DNA of 64,000 nt. It comes from SAR86 cluster bacterium AG-390-O18 (GTDB taxonomy: Bacteria > Pseudomonadota > Gammaproteobacteria > Magnimaribacterales > AG-339-G14). The notes below the pieces were generated by a model. That model was not told the origin of the DNA, ran no database searches, and was given only the letters and a program-made list of their open reading frames with translations. The translations under genes and the position numbers were made by a program. Location: contig QCHF01000002.1 in NCBI GenBank assembly GCA_003279605.1, positions 509,586 through 573,585 of the forward strand, written 5' to 3'. Positions 26,825 through 33,068 of the stretch are shown one piece after another (position 1 is the first letter of the stretch; every line of letters starts with the position of its first letter).

Positions 26825-27254
26825 AGAGTTTCATTGAGAATCTAAATTTTTGAAAATTTCCTTGAATAATTAGACCTGTTTTATTAGATAAATGCTTTTT
26901 TAGTTTAAGATTTTGTAATGAAAAATTCTGGCATTCGATATTTGTACATTTGAAGAAGAACCATTTAAGAAATAACTTCAAATCAGACTCTTTTATGATG
27001 TTTTCATATTTAAAGTTAGTTTTGATTTCTTCATCTTTAAACAAAATATTAAAGTCTTTACTCAAACCATCTAAATTCAATTTAATTCTTTTCTCATCTT
27101 CACTGACATTTATGATTCCTGAGAAATATTCATAATTCGAAGCAAGAGAAAACTTACCTTTTTTAAAAAAATTATCTTCATTAATTTCGATTGCTGCACA
27201 CGAAAAGAGAAAAAAAATCAAAAAAAGATAATAAACTAAAAACGATTTTTTCAT
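26814..27254 (-). CDS. lolB: Short lipoprotein, probable outer-membrane lipoprotein receptor LolB
   Basis: A 146-residue lipoprotein: signal peptide with lipobox (LIFFLFSC), then a small beta-rich domain starting KKGKFSLAS, where LolB proteins have a similar Gly-x-h-a-h strand. LolB receives lipoproteins from LolA and inserts them into the outer membrane. E. coli LolB has 207 residues, so this would be a reduced form. The assignment rests mainly on position: lolB precedes ispE-prs and diverges from hemA-prfA in E. coli, and this gene has exactly that place. Sequence similarity by eye is weak, so another lipoprotein is possible. Confidence 0.5.
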   Translation of the reverse strand: MKKSFLVYYLFLIFFLFSCAAIEINEDNFFKKGKFSLASNYEYFSGIINVSEDEKRIKLNLDGLSKDFNILFKDEEIKTNFKYENIIKESDLKLFLKWFFFKCTNIECQNFSLQNLKLKKHLSNKTGLIIQGNFQKFRFSMKLYDI

Positions 27255-27286: not shown

Positions 27287-28378
27287 ATGCTGGAGTCGGT
27301 AAAAAAGAAACTAGAAGAAATTCAAATTAAACTTTCCCAAATGGAATCTGAGCTCTCAAAGCCGGAAACAATAGAAAATCAAACTAAGTTTACTTCTATT
27401 TCAAAAGAATATTCAAACCTAAAACCTATTGTTGATAGTTTTAGCGAATTTAAATCTGTTGAGGAAAATATTGATGAATCAAATAAACTTTTGAATGATT
27501 CGGATAGTGAAATTAGAGCCTTAGCTCAAGAAGAAATAGAAAGTCTCAAAAATAAAAAAGACTCGTTAGAAGAAAATTTAAAAAAAATGCTGTTACCAAA
27601 AGATCCAAATGACGAAAAAAATGCATTTATAGAGATTCGCGCTGGTACAGGAGGCGATGAAGCAGGACTATTTACTGGCAATTTATTTAGGATGTTTTCC
27701 AGACTATCAGAAAGACGCAAATGGCAAATAGAAATCATTAGCTCTAGAGAAAGCGAAAAAGGAGGTTTCAAAGAAATAGTATCTAAAATTACTGGAAGAG
27801 GTGCTTATGGTTTTCTCAAATATGAATCAGGAATACACAGGGTTCAAAGGGTTCCAGAAACGGAATCACAAGGCAGAATTCATACTTCAGCATGTTCAGT
27901 AGCCGTCCTGCCAGAGGCAGATGAACAGGAAAACATAAACATTGATAAGTCAGAAATTAGAGTTGATACTTTTCGAGCATCTGGCGCAGGAGGACAGCAC
28001 GTTAATAAAACTGATTCAGCAGTTAGGCTGACACATATTCCATCTGGAATTGTCGTTGAGTGTCAGGATGGAAGATCGCAACATAAGAATAAAGAGAAAG
28101 CTATGTCTTTACTTCAAAGTAAATTGAATGAAGCAGCCTTAGAAGAACAAGCTAAAGAATTAGACTCTCAAAGAAAAATCATGGTTGGAAGTGGCGATAG
28201 GTCAGAAAAAATTAGAACTTATAATTTTCCTCAAAGCAGAGTTACTGATCACAGAATAGAATTTTCTGTACATAATTTGGAAGAATTTTTAGATGGCGAC
28301 ATGGAAATTATGCTATCAGCCCTTACAGAAGAGAATGAAGCAAAAAAACTTATAAACTTAGAAAATGAACCTACCTGA
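27287..28378 (+). CDS. prfA: Peptide chain release factor 1
   Basis: RF1 terminates translation at UAG and UAA. I chose the ATG at 27287 (363 residues, E. coli 360; N-terminus MLESVKKKLEEI). A longer frame to 27191 would run through lolB and its promoter region. The stop-reading domain lies around residues 185-195. The catalytic GGQ is in RASGAGGQHVNKTDSAVR, and the C-terminal helix region ends the protein. prmC, which methylates this GGQ glutamine, overlaps the stop by 1 base. hemA, which precedes prfA in many gammaproteobacteria, is absent here. No Shine-Dalgarno sequence precedes the start. Confidence 0.96.
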   Translation: MLESVKKKLEEIQIKLSQMESELSKPETIENQTKFTSISKEYSNLKPIVDSFSEFKSVEENIDESNKLLNDSDSEIRALAQEEIESLKNKKDSLEENLKKMLLPKDPNDEKNAFIEIRAGTGGDEAGLFTGNLFRMFSRLSERRKWQIEIISSRESEKGGFKEIVSKITGRGAYGFLKYESGIHRVQRVPETESQGRIHTSACSVAVLPEADEQENINIDKSEIRVDTFRASGAGGQHVNKTDSAVRLTHIPSGIVVECQDGRSQHKNKEKAMSLLQSKLNEAALEEQAKELDSQRKIMVGSGDRSEKIRTYNFPQSRVTDHRIEFSVHNLEEFLDGDMEIMLSALTEENEAKKLINLENEPT

Positions 28379-29187
28379 TGCTTCTTAAGGATAAGTTAAT
28401 AGAAACTAAAAACAAAATTGATAGTCTTGATGCTGAAATTATTTTTCAACATGTTCTTAAAATAGATAAAGCAAAAATTTATTCAGATATAAAAAAAGAA
28501 ATTAATAAAAAAGATTTAAGCTCTATTGACCTAATGGTGGAAGAGAGATTAAAAGGGAAACCACTAGCTTATTTAATCGGAAAGAAAGGGTTTTGGAAAA
28601 ATAATTTTATTGTCACTCCAGATGTCCTGGTTCCGCGTCCAGAAACTGAAGCATTGGTAGAAGTAATTCTTAATGAAAATCTTCAAGGCAAAACTCTTCT
28701 TGAGCTTGGAACAGGGTCTGGAGTGATTTCTATATCCATTGCTCAAGAAAATAGAGATTGTTTTATTTTTGCAACAGATATTTCCATTAGAAGTATCTTG
28801 GTGGCAAAACAAAATGCAGCAAAGTTTTGCTGTGAAAACATAATTTTTTTAAATCACGACTGGAATAATGAATGGCTTTTTCCTCGGGTAGATTACCTAA
28901 TTTCTAATCCTCCTTATGTAGATAAAGAGGCAACTACTGGTGAAGAAGAAGGAATCTGGTATGAACCAGAAAAAGCTTTATTTTCAAAAGATAAAGGCCT
29001 ATCTGATTTAAAATTAATATTATCTAAAGGAAAAAATTTCTTAAATGAAAATGGTAAAGTCTATTTAGAACATGCTCCTAATCAATACGAAGAATTAAAT
29101 AAATTTGCATTGAAAAATGGGTATCTTAATTTTTCGAATTTAAATGATTTAAATGGAGATAAAAGAGTTTCGATCTATCAATGTTAA
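28378..29187 (+). CDS. prmC: Release factor glutamine N5-methyltransferase PrmC (HemK)
   Basis: PrmC methylates the GGQ glutamine of RF1 and RF2. The 269 residues have an N-terminal helical recognition domain (about 1-75: LAYLIGKKGFW and PDVLVPRPETEALVE follow it) and a Rossmann methyltransferase. The SAM loop is LLELGTGSGVISISIA and the catalytic motif is ISNPPYVDKEA. It directly follows its substrate's gene with a 1-base overlap and overlaps the next gene by 7 bases. Confidence 0.95.
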   Translation: MLLKDKLIETKNKIDSLDAEIIFQHVLKIDKAKIYSDIKKEINKKDLSSIDLMVEERLKGKPLAYLIGKKGFWKNNFIVTPDVLVPRPETEALVEVILNENLQGKTLLELGTGSGVISISIAQENRDCFIFATDISIRSILVAKQNAAKFCCENIIFLNHDWNNEWLFPRVDYLISNPPYVDKEATTGEEEGIWYEPEKALFSKDKGLSDLKLILSKGKNFLNENGKVYLEHAPNQYEELNKFALKNGYLNFSNLNDLNGDKRVSIYQC

Positions 29188-29918
29188 AAGAAGAATTATT
29201 AAGATATAGCAGACATATTATGTTGCCTGAAATAGACATTGAAGGGCAGGAAAAAATTAATAATATGTCCTTGGCATTTATAGGCATGGGTGGCTTAGGA
29301 TGCTCTGCCTCTCTTTATTCAACTTTATCTGGATTCGGTAAAATCAAAATAATAGACTTTGACTTTGTAGAAGCTTCAAACTTACAAAGGCAAATTCTTT
29401 TTGATGAAAATGACTTATCAAAAAACAAAGCCACTACCTCAGTAAAAAAATTATCTCAATTAAATCCTTTTGTTGAACTAACAGGATTAGAGGAAAAAAT
29501 TGATTCTGAAAACATCAAATATCTTCTGAAGGATTCAGAAATAATTCTTGATTGCTCTGATAATTTTGAAACAAGAAAAATTGTAAATAGATATTGCGTA
29601 AAACATAGCAAAATTCTCATTTCTGGATCTTCTATAGCTTGGAAAGGACAATTGGGCTGCTTTGATTTAAGAGATGCTAAGAATTCTTGCTATGAGTGTT
29701 TATTTGAAGATCTTGAGAACGAAGATTTATCATGCAGAGAGTCTGCGATTGCTTCTCCGTTAGTTGGAGCTATAGGTTCTTTAATGGCAATTGAAGTAAT
29801 AAAAGCGACTATAGAAAAAAATTTTGAATCTTATTTTATGATTTTTGATTCGTTGAAAGGAGTTTTTAAAAAAGTTGATATCCATAAAAATCCAGAATGT
29901 AGGATATGTAGAATCTAA
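29181..29918 (+). CDS. moeB: MoeB/ThiF-family adenylyltransferase
   Basis: E1-like enzymes of this family adenylate the C-terminal glycine of a ubiquitin-like sulfur carrier: MoaD for molybdopterin, ThiS for thiamine. The 245 residues begin with RYSRHIMLPEIDIEGQEKI, then the nucleotide loop IGMGGLGCSAS, DFDFVEASNLQRQILF with the ATP-contacting Arg, and DCSDNFETR. Two Cys pairs (CYECLF, and CRIC at the C-terminus) form the structural zinc site. prfA-prmC-moeB is a known order in pseudomonads, which favours MoeB over ThiF. No MoaD or ThiS gene is in the window, so the partner is unknown. Confidence 0.82.
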   Translation: MLKEELLRYSRHIMLPEIDIEGQEKINNMSLAFIGMGGLGCSASLYSTLSGFGKIKIIDFDFVEASNLQRQILFDENDLSKNKATTSVKKLSQLNPFVELTGLEEKIDSENIKYLLKDSEIILDCSDNFETRKIVNRYCVKHSKILISGSSIAWKGQLGCFDLRDAKNSCYECLFEDLENEDLSCRESAIASPLVGAIGSLMAIEVIKATIEKNFESYFMIFDSLKGVFKKVDIHKNPECRICRI

Positions 29919-29921
29919 ATC

Positions 29922-30977
29922 ATGTTTAAAGGATATATAGAAGGTTATTATTCTCGCAGGTTACCAATTGATGCTTTTAAAGACTTAAAGGCGCCAATTT
30001 CTCATTACTTTTATGGACCGAAAGAAGATATTTATTTACGTCATCGATGGCAGGAACTTGATAAAAATCTTAAGAGAAGAATTCTTCCAAAAAAAATCAA
30101 GCAAGTTTATTGCGTTTCTCCTACTTCAGAATTTTTTAAAGATAGCAAAAAAAATCTAAGTCTTTTAAAAAGAAAATTGTCTCATGCTCTTGAGAAGGCA
30201 GGCTTTGATGAAATAGCAATTTTCTTCGATGATATTGATATTACTAATTTTGGGCAGGAAGCTGCAGATAAAGATTTGGGAAAGAAACATGCAGAAGTTT
30301 TAAATGAAGTTTCTATGTACTTTCCAAAACAAAAAAATATTTGGTTTTGTCCGTCAATTTATAATTTATCTTTATCAAAGGGGATATTTGATGAAGGATA
30401 TCTAGGAGGGCTAAAAGAAAATTTAAATAAGCGCATAGTTATTTTTTGGACAGGAGATAATGTTATAAGCGAAAAGATTGATAATTCATCTCTAAAGTCT
30501 ATTCAAGATTTTTTTAAAAATCCTATAGCCATTTGGGATAATTTTTATGCAAATGATTATTGCCCAAGTAGACTGTTTCTAGGTCCCTTAAAAGCAAGAT
30601 CTTTAAACAAATCAATAGTTGGGCATTTTCTCAATGGAACTGGTTTAAAAGAAACAGACAAATTTTTATTAAATTATTTATTTAAACCAAGGCAGAAAGT
30701 TCCTTATTTACCTAAAGAATTAAAACCAATCTTCGCTGATCCCTTTAAGAAGTTAAACGAAAAGGAATTACAGTGCGCTTTAAATATTAGTAAAAAATCA
30801 ATTCGATTTATTTTTGAAAACCCTCTCGATGAAATTTTATTGGAATGGAAACCATTTTTAATGTCTTCTTTAAACGATATAAAACTTTTTAATTTAGAAT
30901 CAAAAAAAGAGGTTGAAGGATTTCTTGAGCGAAGATATTCTCCTTTATTCGTAAAGGGTTTAACAAAAAAAAGGTGA
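29922..30977 (+). CDS. GH84-family beta-N-acetylglucosaminidase (O-GlcNAcase-like)
   Basis: 351 residues resembling the catalytic domain of human O-GlcNAcase and bacterial GH84 enzymes. Family landmarks occur in order: GYIEGYYSR at 4-12 (family GxxEGFYG), YGPKEDIYLRHRW at 31-43 (human YAPKDDYKHR..W), the catalytic Asp pair in FFDDID (D103, D104), WTG at 176-178, and WDNFYANDY at 205-213 (human WDNIHANDY). GH84 removes terminal beta-linked GlcNAc by substrate-assisted catalysis. There is no signal peptide or membrane helix, so it should be cytosolic. The C-terminal 90 residues are not recognised. It sits 3 bases after moeB and 4 before an acyl-CoA ligase. The substrate is unknown: a glycoprotein, a wall-recycling fragment and a free GlcNAc glycoside are all possible. 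Confidence 0.85.
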   Translation: MFKGYIEGYYSRRLPIDAFKDLKAPISHYFYGPKEDIYLRHRWQELDKNLKRRILPKKIKQVYCVSPTSEFFKDSKKNLSLLKRKLSHALEKAGFDEIAIFFDDIDITNFGQEAADKDLGKKHAEVLNEVSMYFPKQKNIWFCPSIYNLSLSKGIFDEGYLGGLKENLNKRIVIFWTGDNVISEKIDNSSLKSIQDFFKNPIAIWDNFYANDYCPSRLFLGPLKARSLNKSIVGHFLNGTGLKETDKFLLNYLFKPRQKVPYLPKELKPIFADPFKKLNEKELQCALNISKKSIRFIFENPLDEILLEWKPFLMSSLNDIKLFNLESKKEVEGFLERRYSPLFVKGLTKKR

Positions 30978-30981
30978 GATT

Positions 30982-32598
30982 ATGTTAGGTAATATGATGA
31001 ATGAACAACTTCTAATTTCAGGAGTTTTAGAACATGCTATAAAAAATAACGCCAATACAGAAATAGTAAGCAACACTATAGAAGGAGGTATACACAGATA
31101 TACCATCAAGGATTCTGCAAAAAGATCAAAGAAATTGGCCAATGCTTTGCTTAATTTGAATATTAAAGAGGGGGATATAATTGCCACAATGGCAGTAAAC
31201 AGTTATCGCCATTTAGAACTTTATTTTGGTATTTCTGGATTGGGGGCCGTTCTTCATACTCTTAATCCAAGATTGTTTCCAGATGATATTAAGTACATTG
31301 TTAATCATGCCGAAGATAAATATATCTTCGTTGATGCGCCTTTCTTACCAATCATAGAAAATGTCATTTCTGACCTTAAAACAGTTAAAGGAATTGTGGT
31401 ACTTACTGATAAGGAGCACATGCCATCTTCATCAATTAAAAATCTCATTTGTTATGAAGATTTTATTGATGATGAATCTGAAGAAATAGTTTGGCCTGAA
31501 TTTGATGAGAATACAGCATCATCATTGTGTTATACATCTGGTACAACTGGAAATCCTAAGGGAGTTCTTTATTCTCACAGATCAACAGTTTTGCATGCTT
31601 GGTATGCTACTGCTGGGAATGCAATGAATTTAACTTCTGAAACTGTTTTACTTCCTGTAGTGCCAATGTTTCATGTTAACGCGTGGGGAATTCCATATGC
31701 CTCATTTATGTACGGCGCCAAAATGGTTTTTCCAGGTCCCTTTACTGATGGTGAATCAATTTGTAATTTAATTACTTCTGAAAAAGTAAATCAGCTTATG
31801 GGAGTTCCTACGGTATGGCTTGACTTGCTGAATTATACTGAGAAGAACAATATCAAACTTGAGTCTGTAAATAGTGTTTTGGTTGGTGGCTCTGCTGCTC
31901 CAAAAGCTATGATTAAAGCCTTTCAAGAGAAACATGATTGTTTTTTACTTCATGGTTGGGGTATGACAGAAATGAGTCCGCTTGGGACACTCAATTCCTA
32001 CACTCCAGAGATGGATAGCATGGATCTTGAAGAAAGATATGAAATTCAAACAAGCCAAGGTAGAGCAGTTTACGGTTGTTCAATGAAAATAGTAAATGAT
32101 GAAGGTGAGGTTCTTCCTAATGAAGGAAAAACGTTTGGGAGACTTATGGTCAAAGGACCTGCAATTATTGAACGTTACTTTAAGTCTAATGAGACTGCTC
32201 TGGAAGATGGATGGTTTGATACAGGAGACGTCGCAACGATAGATACTCATGGCTATATGAGAATAGTTGATAGAAGTAAAGATGTTATCAAATCCGGAGG
32301 AGAGTGGATTAGCTCTATTGATCTAGAAAATACAGCAGTTGGACATCCGGGAGTAGCAGAGGCATGTGTTGTTGGAGTTGCACATGCCAAATGGGATGAA
32401 AGACCTTTATTGTTTATTGTTAAAAATGGCTTAGAAGAATGTGATAAAGATTCAGTATTGGATTACCTTTCTGATAAAGTAGCAAAGTGGTGGCTTCCTG
32501 ATGACGTTATCTTTTTAGATGAACTTCCTCACGGAGCAACAGGAAAGCTTCTCAAGACAGGTTTGCGAGAAGATTACAAAAAACATTTAATGAAATAA
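30982..32598 (+). CDS. Acyl-CoA synthetase (AMP-forming, AlkK/DmdB-like)
   Basis: A 538-residue member of the ANL superfamily that activates a carboxylic acid to its CoA thioester through an acyl-adenylate. Visible motifs are the P loop [16 protein letters not shown], the GWGMTEMSP adenine motif, [11 protein letters not shown], the hinge [17 protein letters not shown] and the catalytic Lys near the C-terminus in [11 protein letters not shown]. The N-terminus (MLGNMM...[10 protein letters not shown]) resembles medium-chain ligases of the AlkK type and DmdB, the methylmercaptopropionate-CoA ligase. Substrate choice cannot be read by eye. A Shine-Dalgarno-like AAGGTGAG precedes the ATG. A MaoC-type hydratase follows after 17 bases. 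Confidence 0.88.
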
Positions 32599-32615
32599 AA
32601 ATCAAGGAGAAAACA

Positions 32616-33068
32616 ATGGCTGGATTAGTACCTGCAGACACTTTAAAGGATTACATTGGTAAAGATATGGGGGCTTCCGATTGGTTAAAAGTCGATCAAG
32701 ACAGAATAAATCAATTTGCTGATGCAACGAATGACCATCAGTTCATTCACATCGATTCAGAAAAAGCTACACCGCTTTTTGGCTCAACAATAGCTCATGG
32801 ATTCTTATCCCTCTCGTTGATGGCTGGGTTGCCTGCTCCTCAAGTTGCTCCTGAGGGCATGACCATGGTTTTTAATTATGGACTTGATAAAGTTCGATTT
32901 TTAACCCCCGTTAATGTGGGTTCAAAAGTAAGGACTAAATCAACACTTTTATCTGTTGATGATAAAGGTGACGGAAGATATCTTTTGAAATATGAAGTTG
33001 TAATGGAGATAGAAGGTCAAGAAAAACCTGCTTATGTAGCCGAGTCTTTGTCTATGTTCATTACTTAG
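32616..33068 (+). CDS. MaoC-like (R)-specific enoyl-CoA hydratase
   Basis: A 150-residue single hot-dog-fold protein of the MaoC dehydratase family. The hydratase motif with catalytic Asp and His is visible as FADATNDHQFIHID (about residues 32-45), followed by STIAHGFLSLSLMAGL. Such enzymes hydrate trans-2-enoyl-CoA to (R)-3-hydroxyacyl-CoA. It follows the acyl-CoA ligase by 17 bases behind an AAGGAGA ribosome site. The two may act in sequence on a CoA thioester, though other beta-oxidation genes are not nearby. Its stop overlaps the gatB end on the other strand by 8 bases. Confidence 0.88.
   Translation: MAGLVPADTLKDYIGKDMGASDWLKVDQDRINQFADATNDHQFIHIDSEKATPLFGSTIAHGFLSLSLMAGLPAPQVAPEGMTMVFNYGLDKVRFLTPVNVGSKVRTKSTLLSVDDKGDGRYLLKYEVVMEIEGQEKPAYVAESLSMFIT

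Follow-up and report, generated by a model that had tools for sequence, protein, structure and literature searches.

The window, a stretch of 64,000 nucleotides from a SAR86 cluster genome, carries a GH84 gene whose product, cytosolic as judged from its sequence, is probably a beta-N-acetylglucosaminidase that stands in for NagZ in the recycling of peptidoglycan. The basis of this reading lies in the family, fold and catalytic pair of the protein as well as in its gene and genome associations. Of the glucosaminidase families searched (GH3, GH20, and GH84), only GH84 offers a candidate for the NagZ cut. Proteins with ANDYC and NxxGxxxD are likely to form a hitherto unrecognized cytosolic GH84 clade that carries out the NagZ step in SAR86, SAR116, and Granulosicoccaceae independently of NagZ ancestry, having been acquired two or more times within SAR86. 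SAR86 and SAR116 are abundant ocean bacteria which are mostly uncultured; if the reading is true, GH84 constitutes a non-orthologous replacement of NagZ in abundant marine bacteria.

The GH84 Gene and Its Locus

The gene and its neighbors, together with the codons discussed below, are located as follows.

27287..28378, forward strand: prfA (PCRF and RF-1 domains; start probably at an internal Met, the listed ORF starting at 27191)
28378..29187, forward strand: prmC (TIGR03534, 232 bits, cut-off 199)
29181..29918, forward strand: moeB/thiF-type adenylyltransferase (PF00899; the best NCBIfam models are MoeB, all below cut-off)
29922..30977, forward strand: GH84 beta-N-acetylglucosaminidase-like protein, putative NagZ substitute (351 aa; PF07555, 138.3 bits; model Z 30 vs. 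human O-GlcNAcase)
30021..30023, forward strand: Lys34 codon (PKED), invariant in 53/53 aligned proteins
30228..30233, forward strand: catalytic D103-D104 codons, both residues invariant in 53/53 (position checked)
30534..30563, forward strand: WDNFYANDYC (residues 205–214), the Cys being part of the subfamily signature
30633..30659, forward strand: NGTGLKETD (residues 238–246), subfamily signature N-x-x-G-x3-D, in 69/72 loci
30982..32598, forward strand: acyl-CoA ligase (PF00501)
32616..33068, forward strand: MaoC-domain protein (PF01575)

The GH84 frame starts with ATG and encodes 351 residues with zero internal stops, while the opposite strand of 29922..30977 is packed with stops. The first-pass annotation had placed the gene in a tight translation-factor operon of a reduced genome. 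Both descriptions stand: prfA, prmC, and a ThiF/MoeB-type gene lie upstream, the gaps on the 5′ and 3′ sides of the GH84 gene measure 3 and 4 bases, and the genome (G000) amounts to 1,275,802 bases (1.28 Mb) on three contigs at 96.6% completeness. A 98% identical GH84 copy is found on a SAR86 cluster contig (L001). Of two further SAR86 loci of the prfA-prmC type that were compared, one (L016) has the same arrangement, prfA-prmC-moeB-GH84-acyl-CoA ligase-maoC, and the other (L026) has it without moeB. In a different SAR86 genus (G006), GH84 is located elsewhere, adjoining an esterase gene. SAR86 GH84 copies thus occur with prfA-prmC or elsewhere, and none lies beside recycling genes in the loci examined.

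The ligase directly 3′ of GH84 has 3-(methylthio)propionyl-CoA ligase as its best model (783 bits, below the cut-off of 822) and is followed by the MaoC protein (30982–33068). These two genes perhaps represent a DMSP-demethylation (DmdB-like) step in SAR86.

Family, Fold, and Catalytic Residues

The protein had been assigned to GH84 on the strength of its landmark motifs, and a profile search bears this out, with PF07555 (NAGidase) matching at an E-value of 4.4e-40 and 138.3 bits against a curated Pfam cut-off of 25. All motifs are at the places originally given, namely GYIEGYYSR at residues 4–12, PKEDIYLRHRW at 33–43, FFDDID at 101–106 (with D103/D104), WTG at 176–178, and WDNFYANDY at 205–213. 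Among solved structures, chains of human O-GlcNAcase give the best sequence matches (E about 5e-28), and the solved chains matched include human O-GlcNAcase, OgOGA, TtOGA, BT_4395, and NagJ. GH3/NagZ models are absent from the profile matches. The protein may function like NagZ without being NagZ by descent.

The AlphaFold2 model (pLDDT 88.6, pTM 0.88) fits human O-GlcNAcase with a Z-score of 30.1 over 341 aligned residues at an rmsd of 3.1. Among the 50 entries listed by the fold search, Z-scores range from 26.4 to 30.1 and the titles name O-GlcNAcase or GH84, apart from a few general ones (“hydrolase”). In the model, D103 and D104 directly follow barrel strand 97–101 (mean pLDDT of residues 101–110, 74), which agrees with their proposed role as the catalytic pair. 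Conservation was assessed in an alignment of 53 rows (A1), comprising the window protein and 52 of 72 GH84 loci, a selection that omits near-copies, the L030 fragment, the three long proteins of Myxococcota, and several others. The Asp pair is kept in all 53 proteins, and K34, Y147, W205–N207, and N238 are likewise invariant. The latter residues are positioned at or just past the ends of strands 28–31, 140–143, 202–206, and 232–238 in the model, a placement that fits a barrel active site. GH84 catalysis is substrate-assisted.

The proposal that the enzyme lacks a secretion signal and is cytosolic likewise holds at the level of prediction. Within the first 45 residues, no hydrophobic N-terminus is present (the highest 15-residue Kyte-Doolittle mean is 0.07), the first barrel strand of the model begins at residue 2, and no signal peptide is visible.

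Distribution of GH84 and NagZ in the SAR86 Family

The SAR86 family set comprises 40 genomes in four genera, with 32 genomes in g1–g3 and eight in g4. By profile search, GH84 is present in 30/32 genomes of g1–g3 and in 0/8 of g4, and 20/20 SAR86 copies fetched by profile keep DD, WDN..AND, and P-K-E-D. Genomes of g1–g3 contain at most one GH3 gene, with an open frame of 807–831 aa, and seven of the eight g4 genomes contain a second GH3 with a frame of 337–346 aa. The g4 GH3 that was tested corresponds to NagZ by NCBIfam NF003740 (421.7 bits, cut-off 207), and the motif KHFPGHG is found in all seven NagZ-size GH3 proteins of g4. Across the 40 genomes, 30 have GH84 without a NagZ-size GH3, seven have NagZ without GH84, none has both, and three have neither (Fisher p 6e-6, for genomes that are not independent). 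The three genomes with neither gene (G001, G004, and G024) are 70–81% complete. The search for nagZ suggested by the first-pass annotation accordingly returned no NagZ-size GH3 where GH84 is present in the family. The g4 pattern may reflect a single event.

The large SAR86 GH3 was considered as NagZ and rejected. KHFPGHG is absent from all 22 g1–g3 proteins inspected (of 25, frames 807–831 aa) and is found in 0/30 large SAR86 GH3 loci (L101–L123, L148–L154), a set in which genomes G082 and G083 duplicate G026 and G028. The six large proteins compared share 22–27% identity with g4 NagZ over 157–185 residues. Five SAR86 genomes outside the 40 (G066–G070) were included in the GH3 search. No sign was seen of GH84 having taken over the nagZ position itself; in the three g4 loci inspected (L134, L135, and L137), no prfA, prmC, or moeB homolog surrounds nagZ.

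Recycling Genes in SAR86

AmpG is found above cut-off in 34/40 SAR86 genomes and AnmK in 34/40, and both occur in all four genera. AmpG, AmpD, and AnmK are all present in the window’s genome. Here, AmpG scores 389.5 bits (cut-off 350), AmpD, located next but one to AmpG, scores 261.6 bits (cut-off 143), and AnmK matches PF03702 at 289 bits (cut-off 24), its best NCBIfam model lying below cut-off (345.6 vs. 367). AmpD is close to AmpG in this genome and in one g4 genome. An AnmK match is missing from four GH84-bearing genomes (G026 and G027, 91–92% complete, as well as G008 and G012) and from two NagZ-bearing ones (G017 and G018).

MurQ was rejected as a SAR86 partner. No match lies above cut-off in any of the 40 genomes, and the weak matches in 34 of them, mostly frames of about 610–630 aa, are probably GlmS as suggested by size and NCBIfam cross-hits. 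Since MurQ is not found above cut-off, the AnmK product may take the MupP/AmgK/MurU route, as described for Caulobacter (PMC13046382).

Two conserved neighborhoods were observed among these genes. Between AmpD and AmpG lies a small conserved gene (160 aa, YajQ-like by eye), an arrangement with identical gene order in two genera (L162:6682-8984 in G000 and L163:7444-9742 in the g4 genome G022). AnmK of the window’s genome lies directly 3′ of an M23-type endopeptidase gene (L139:5987-8378; ShyC/MepM-like, below cut-offs), and a similar AnmK neighbor was seen by eye in three other SAR86 genera (L164, L165, and L166).

GH84 in Recycling Clusters of Other Lineages

Relatives of the window gene are clustered with the recycling pathway in two other lineages, SAR116 and Granulosicoccaceae, and in none of the SAR86 loci examined. 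Among 58 genomes of the alphaproteobacterial SAR116 family, 39 contain GH84 and AnmK, one GH84 alone, one AnmK alone (G121), and 17 neither (Fisher p 1.6e-12, uncorrected for relatedness or missing contigs, and joint loss of neighboring genes can arise from a missing contig). The 40 GH84-positive genomes include one with a partial match (G105) and one with a stop-broken gene (G103). GH84 and AnmK share a contig in 37 of the 39 genomes, with AnmK upstream and on the same strand in 37/37 and no more than 2.5 kb away in 36. None of the 58 SAR116 genomes yielded a GH3 match, so that GH3 is also missing from all 18 genomes without GH84.

The SAR116 GH84 gene lies downstream of anmK and near murQ and ampG, often together with Amidase_2 and NlpC/P60 genes. 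In one representative locus (L038), AnmK, MurQ, and AmpG each exceed an NCBIfam cut-off; the NlpC and Amidase_2 neighbors fall below theirs and are therefore named by Pfam only. Over all alphaproteobacterial GH84 loci, the markers AnmK, MurQ, and AmpG are found in 23/26, 22/26, and 19/26, respectively, loci truncated by contig ends being scored as misses in this tally of whole loci. In Granulosicoccaceae (Pseudomonadota), AmpG accompanies GH84 in 6/6 loci, MurQ in 5/6, and AnmK in 3/6, in an order unlike the alphaproteobacterial one. Two of the six Granulosicoccaceae genomes yield no GH3 match, and four contain a GH3 with the NagZ motif whose N-termini are lipoprotein-like by eye, so that these enzymes are probably not cytosolic.

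Several side observations concern these loci. A PIG-L type gene (GlcNAc de-N-acetylase family) is located just upstream of GH84 on the opposite strand in L038 (5231–5917) and at the matching place in 24/26 alphaproteobacterial loci; its product might act on the released sugar. The 17 SAR116 genomes in which GH84, AnmK, and GH3 are all missing have either lost sugar recycling or are incomplete. In G103, one of the 39 genomes scored as having both genes, GH84 and AnmK adjoin each other on contig 25 and each is interrupted by stops or frame changes, as if they had decayed together or through a sequencing fault. The NagZ-like GH3 proteins of Granulosicoccaceae (L144–L147) combine their lipoprotein-like N-termini with a shortened catalytic loop KHFPGHGRGSDSH.

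The distribution and gene neighborhoods also bear on a cytosolic catabolic role, in which the enzyme would trim other GlcNAc glycans, for instance chitin taken up from outside or oligosaccharides from a host. GH84 enzymes can act on various beta-GlcNAc aglycones, glycans of this kind are met by marine bacteria, and GH20 was found in 0/40 SAR86 family genomes by profile search, all of which such a role would accommodate. Carbohydrate-uptake genes are absent from the identified neighbors, however, and both the NagZ-bearing genus without GH84 and the AnmK/MurQ/AmpG clusters would be left unexplained, making glycan catabolism improbable.

Subfamily Signature and Phylogeny

A signature consisting of AND[YH]C and a later N-x-x-G-x3-D is present in 69/72 GH84 loci. 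It is lacking in three long proteins from Myxococcota (757–942 aa as called), of which L069 has a lipoprotein-like start and L065 likewise from an internal Met; a GH3 with the NagZ motif is kept in all three of their genomes. WDNFYAND served as a retrieval pattern for loci, which accounts for some of its conservation among the 72; the following Cys and NxxGxxxD were part of no pattern. Among 41 genomes with a signature-type GH84, a set that overlaps with the SAR86, SAR116, and Granulosicoccaceae sets, 29 have no GH3 match and eight have only the large motif-less GH3. The remaining four are the Granulosicoccaceae genomes with the lipoprotein-like GH3.

The AnmK, MurQ, and AmpG markers are found in none of L025–L030, L032, L033, L035, L058, L067, L068, L072, and the three Myxococcota loci. 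One signature-type protein (L029, Fibrobacteria) belongs to a 5.2-Mb Fibrobacterota genome (G071) without a GH3 match, possibly the same swap of NagZ for GH84 in another phylum; no recycling genes were seen in its 8.6-kb locus.

A first tree of 71/72 loci came with long-branch warnings. A single SAR86 GH84 clade is rejected by the AU test (p 0.00056; 49/72 loci, the one-clade group having been named after the first tree was known), and the copies form two clades, both in NagZ-less genera. If this is right, GH84 would have entered SAR86 on two or more occasions, always in NagZ-less lineages. Human O-GlcNAcase and SAR116 copies resemble the window protein to roughly the same degree (32% with L038 and 26% with L063).

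The separate clades and loci of the SAR86 copies raise the question of whether NagZ substitution is confined to the SAR116 and Granulosicoccaceae enzymes, the SAR86 proteins having drifted in function and g1–g3 having simply lost the NagZ step. The location of SAR86 copies in a translation-factor operon or alone, their placement in other clades, and the four GH84-bearing genomes without an AnmK match would agree with such a course. It is nonetheless unlikely, given that the SAR86 copies have the subfamily signature and the Asp pair, that AmpG, AmpD, and AnmK are present in the window’s genome, and that GH84 and NagZ exclude each other over 40 genomes.

Protein O-GlcNAc Editing

For a cytosolic enzyme of this family, the first-pass annotation had considered either an intracellular GlcNAc-modified substrate or a new GlcNAc recycling step. 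The first option is not sustained. A search for the O-GlcNAc transferase family GT41 (PF13844) gave 0/40 SAR86 family genomes, the window’s own included, using a profile that was positive in two of 14 named control genomes (Caulobacter and Synechococcus), and protein O-GlcNAc cycling was rejected as the main reading. The recycling option is favored, with nagZ missing from GH84-bearing SAR86 genomes and recycling clusters in other lineages. A true O-GlcNAc hydrolase might still act in the cytosol if proteins were modified by a non-GT41 transferase or non-enzymatically; the nearest solved relatives are O-GlcNAcases, their catalytic residues match, and the protein is predicted to be cytosolic. 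Set against this are the GT41 result, the replacement of the human-type NPNCEFEAN, and the NagZ swap and anmK linkage of relatives, which would be left unexplained. Such a function is thus highly improbable.

Proposed Role in Peptidoglycan Recycling

NagZ is the known enzyme of this recycling step in Escherichia coli and Caulobacter, as listed in Table 1 of PMC13046382, the main text of which makes no mention of GH84. In the pathway proposed for the window’s genome, lytic transglycosylases would release GlcNAc-1,6-anhydroMurNAc-peptides, which AmpG would import. The GH84 enzyme would then cut the GlcNAc-beta-1,4-anhydroMurNAc bond of this presumed substrate, probably by the substrate-assisted mechanism described for GH84 (PMC10636738) and by means of the D103/D104 pair. 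AmpD would presumably strip the peptide next, and AnmK could then phosphorylate the freed anhydroMurNAc.

The substrate of AnmK is anhydroMurNAc freed from GlcNAc. A genome with AmpG, AmpD, and AnmK and without NagZ therefore needs another cutting enzyme. Weighing against this role are the position of the SAR86 GH84 genes away from recycling genes, the comparable similarity to human O-GlcNAcase, the three SAR86 genomes with neither enzyme, the GH84-bearing genomes without AnmK, the SAR116 genomes that lack both GH84 and GH3 (G121 with AnmK alone), the NagZ-motif GH3 of four Granulosicoccaceae genomes, and the missing MurQ in SAR86. If GH84 is that enzyme, the chemistry of O-GlcNAc removal would be a cell-wall recycling activity which GH84 inhibitors might block, and a concrete role would emerge for bacterial “O-GlcNAcases” that owe this name to their human counterpart.

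In the open-licence literature, no link was found between GH84 (or O-GlcNAcase) and peptidoglycan recycling, muropeptides, AmpG, or NagZ/AnmK, nor between SAR86 and O-GlcNAcase or peptidoglycan recycling. The few papers that came up concern NagZ inhibitors and, by title, other glucosaminidases and fungal GlcNAc sensing. The GH84 family and the recycling pathway are each known, and their pairing was not found among the open-licence papers listed.

Comparison With Known Systems

Human O-GlcNAcase shares the fold, the Asp pair, and the WDN..AND motif with the window protein. In the human enzyme ANDY is followed by Asp and NPNCEFEAN is present, in contrast to the Cys and NxxGxxxD of the window protein. 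With only 351 aa, the latter cannot accommodate the acetyltransferase-like domain of human O-GlcNAcase, and the GT41 partner of the human system was not found in the window’s genome.

Clostridium perfringens NagJ and Bacteroides BT_4395 have the catalytic domain and fold in common with the window protein; both are much longer than 351 aa and are secreted. TtOGA (Thermobaculum terrenum) and OgOGA (Oceanicola granulosus) are bacterial GH84s matched by both sequence and fold. TtOGA has been reported to be intracellular, so that a cytosolic bacterial GH84 is not new in itself, and has a GT41 partner in its own genome, in contrast to the SAR86 family, although O-GlcNAc protein was described as undetectable in T. 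terrenum (PMC4683255). Reading the window protein as a NagZ substitute suggests muropeptides as substrates worth trying for intracellular bacterial O-GlcNAcases such as TtOGA.

The closest functional counterpart is NagZ, a GH3 enzyme with the same proposed step, the same cytosolic place, and the partners AmpG, AmpD, and AnmK, which co-occurs with GH84 in 0/40 SAR86 genomes. It belongs to an unrelated family, the GH84 fold and Asp pair of the window protein standing in place of GH3 chemistry.
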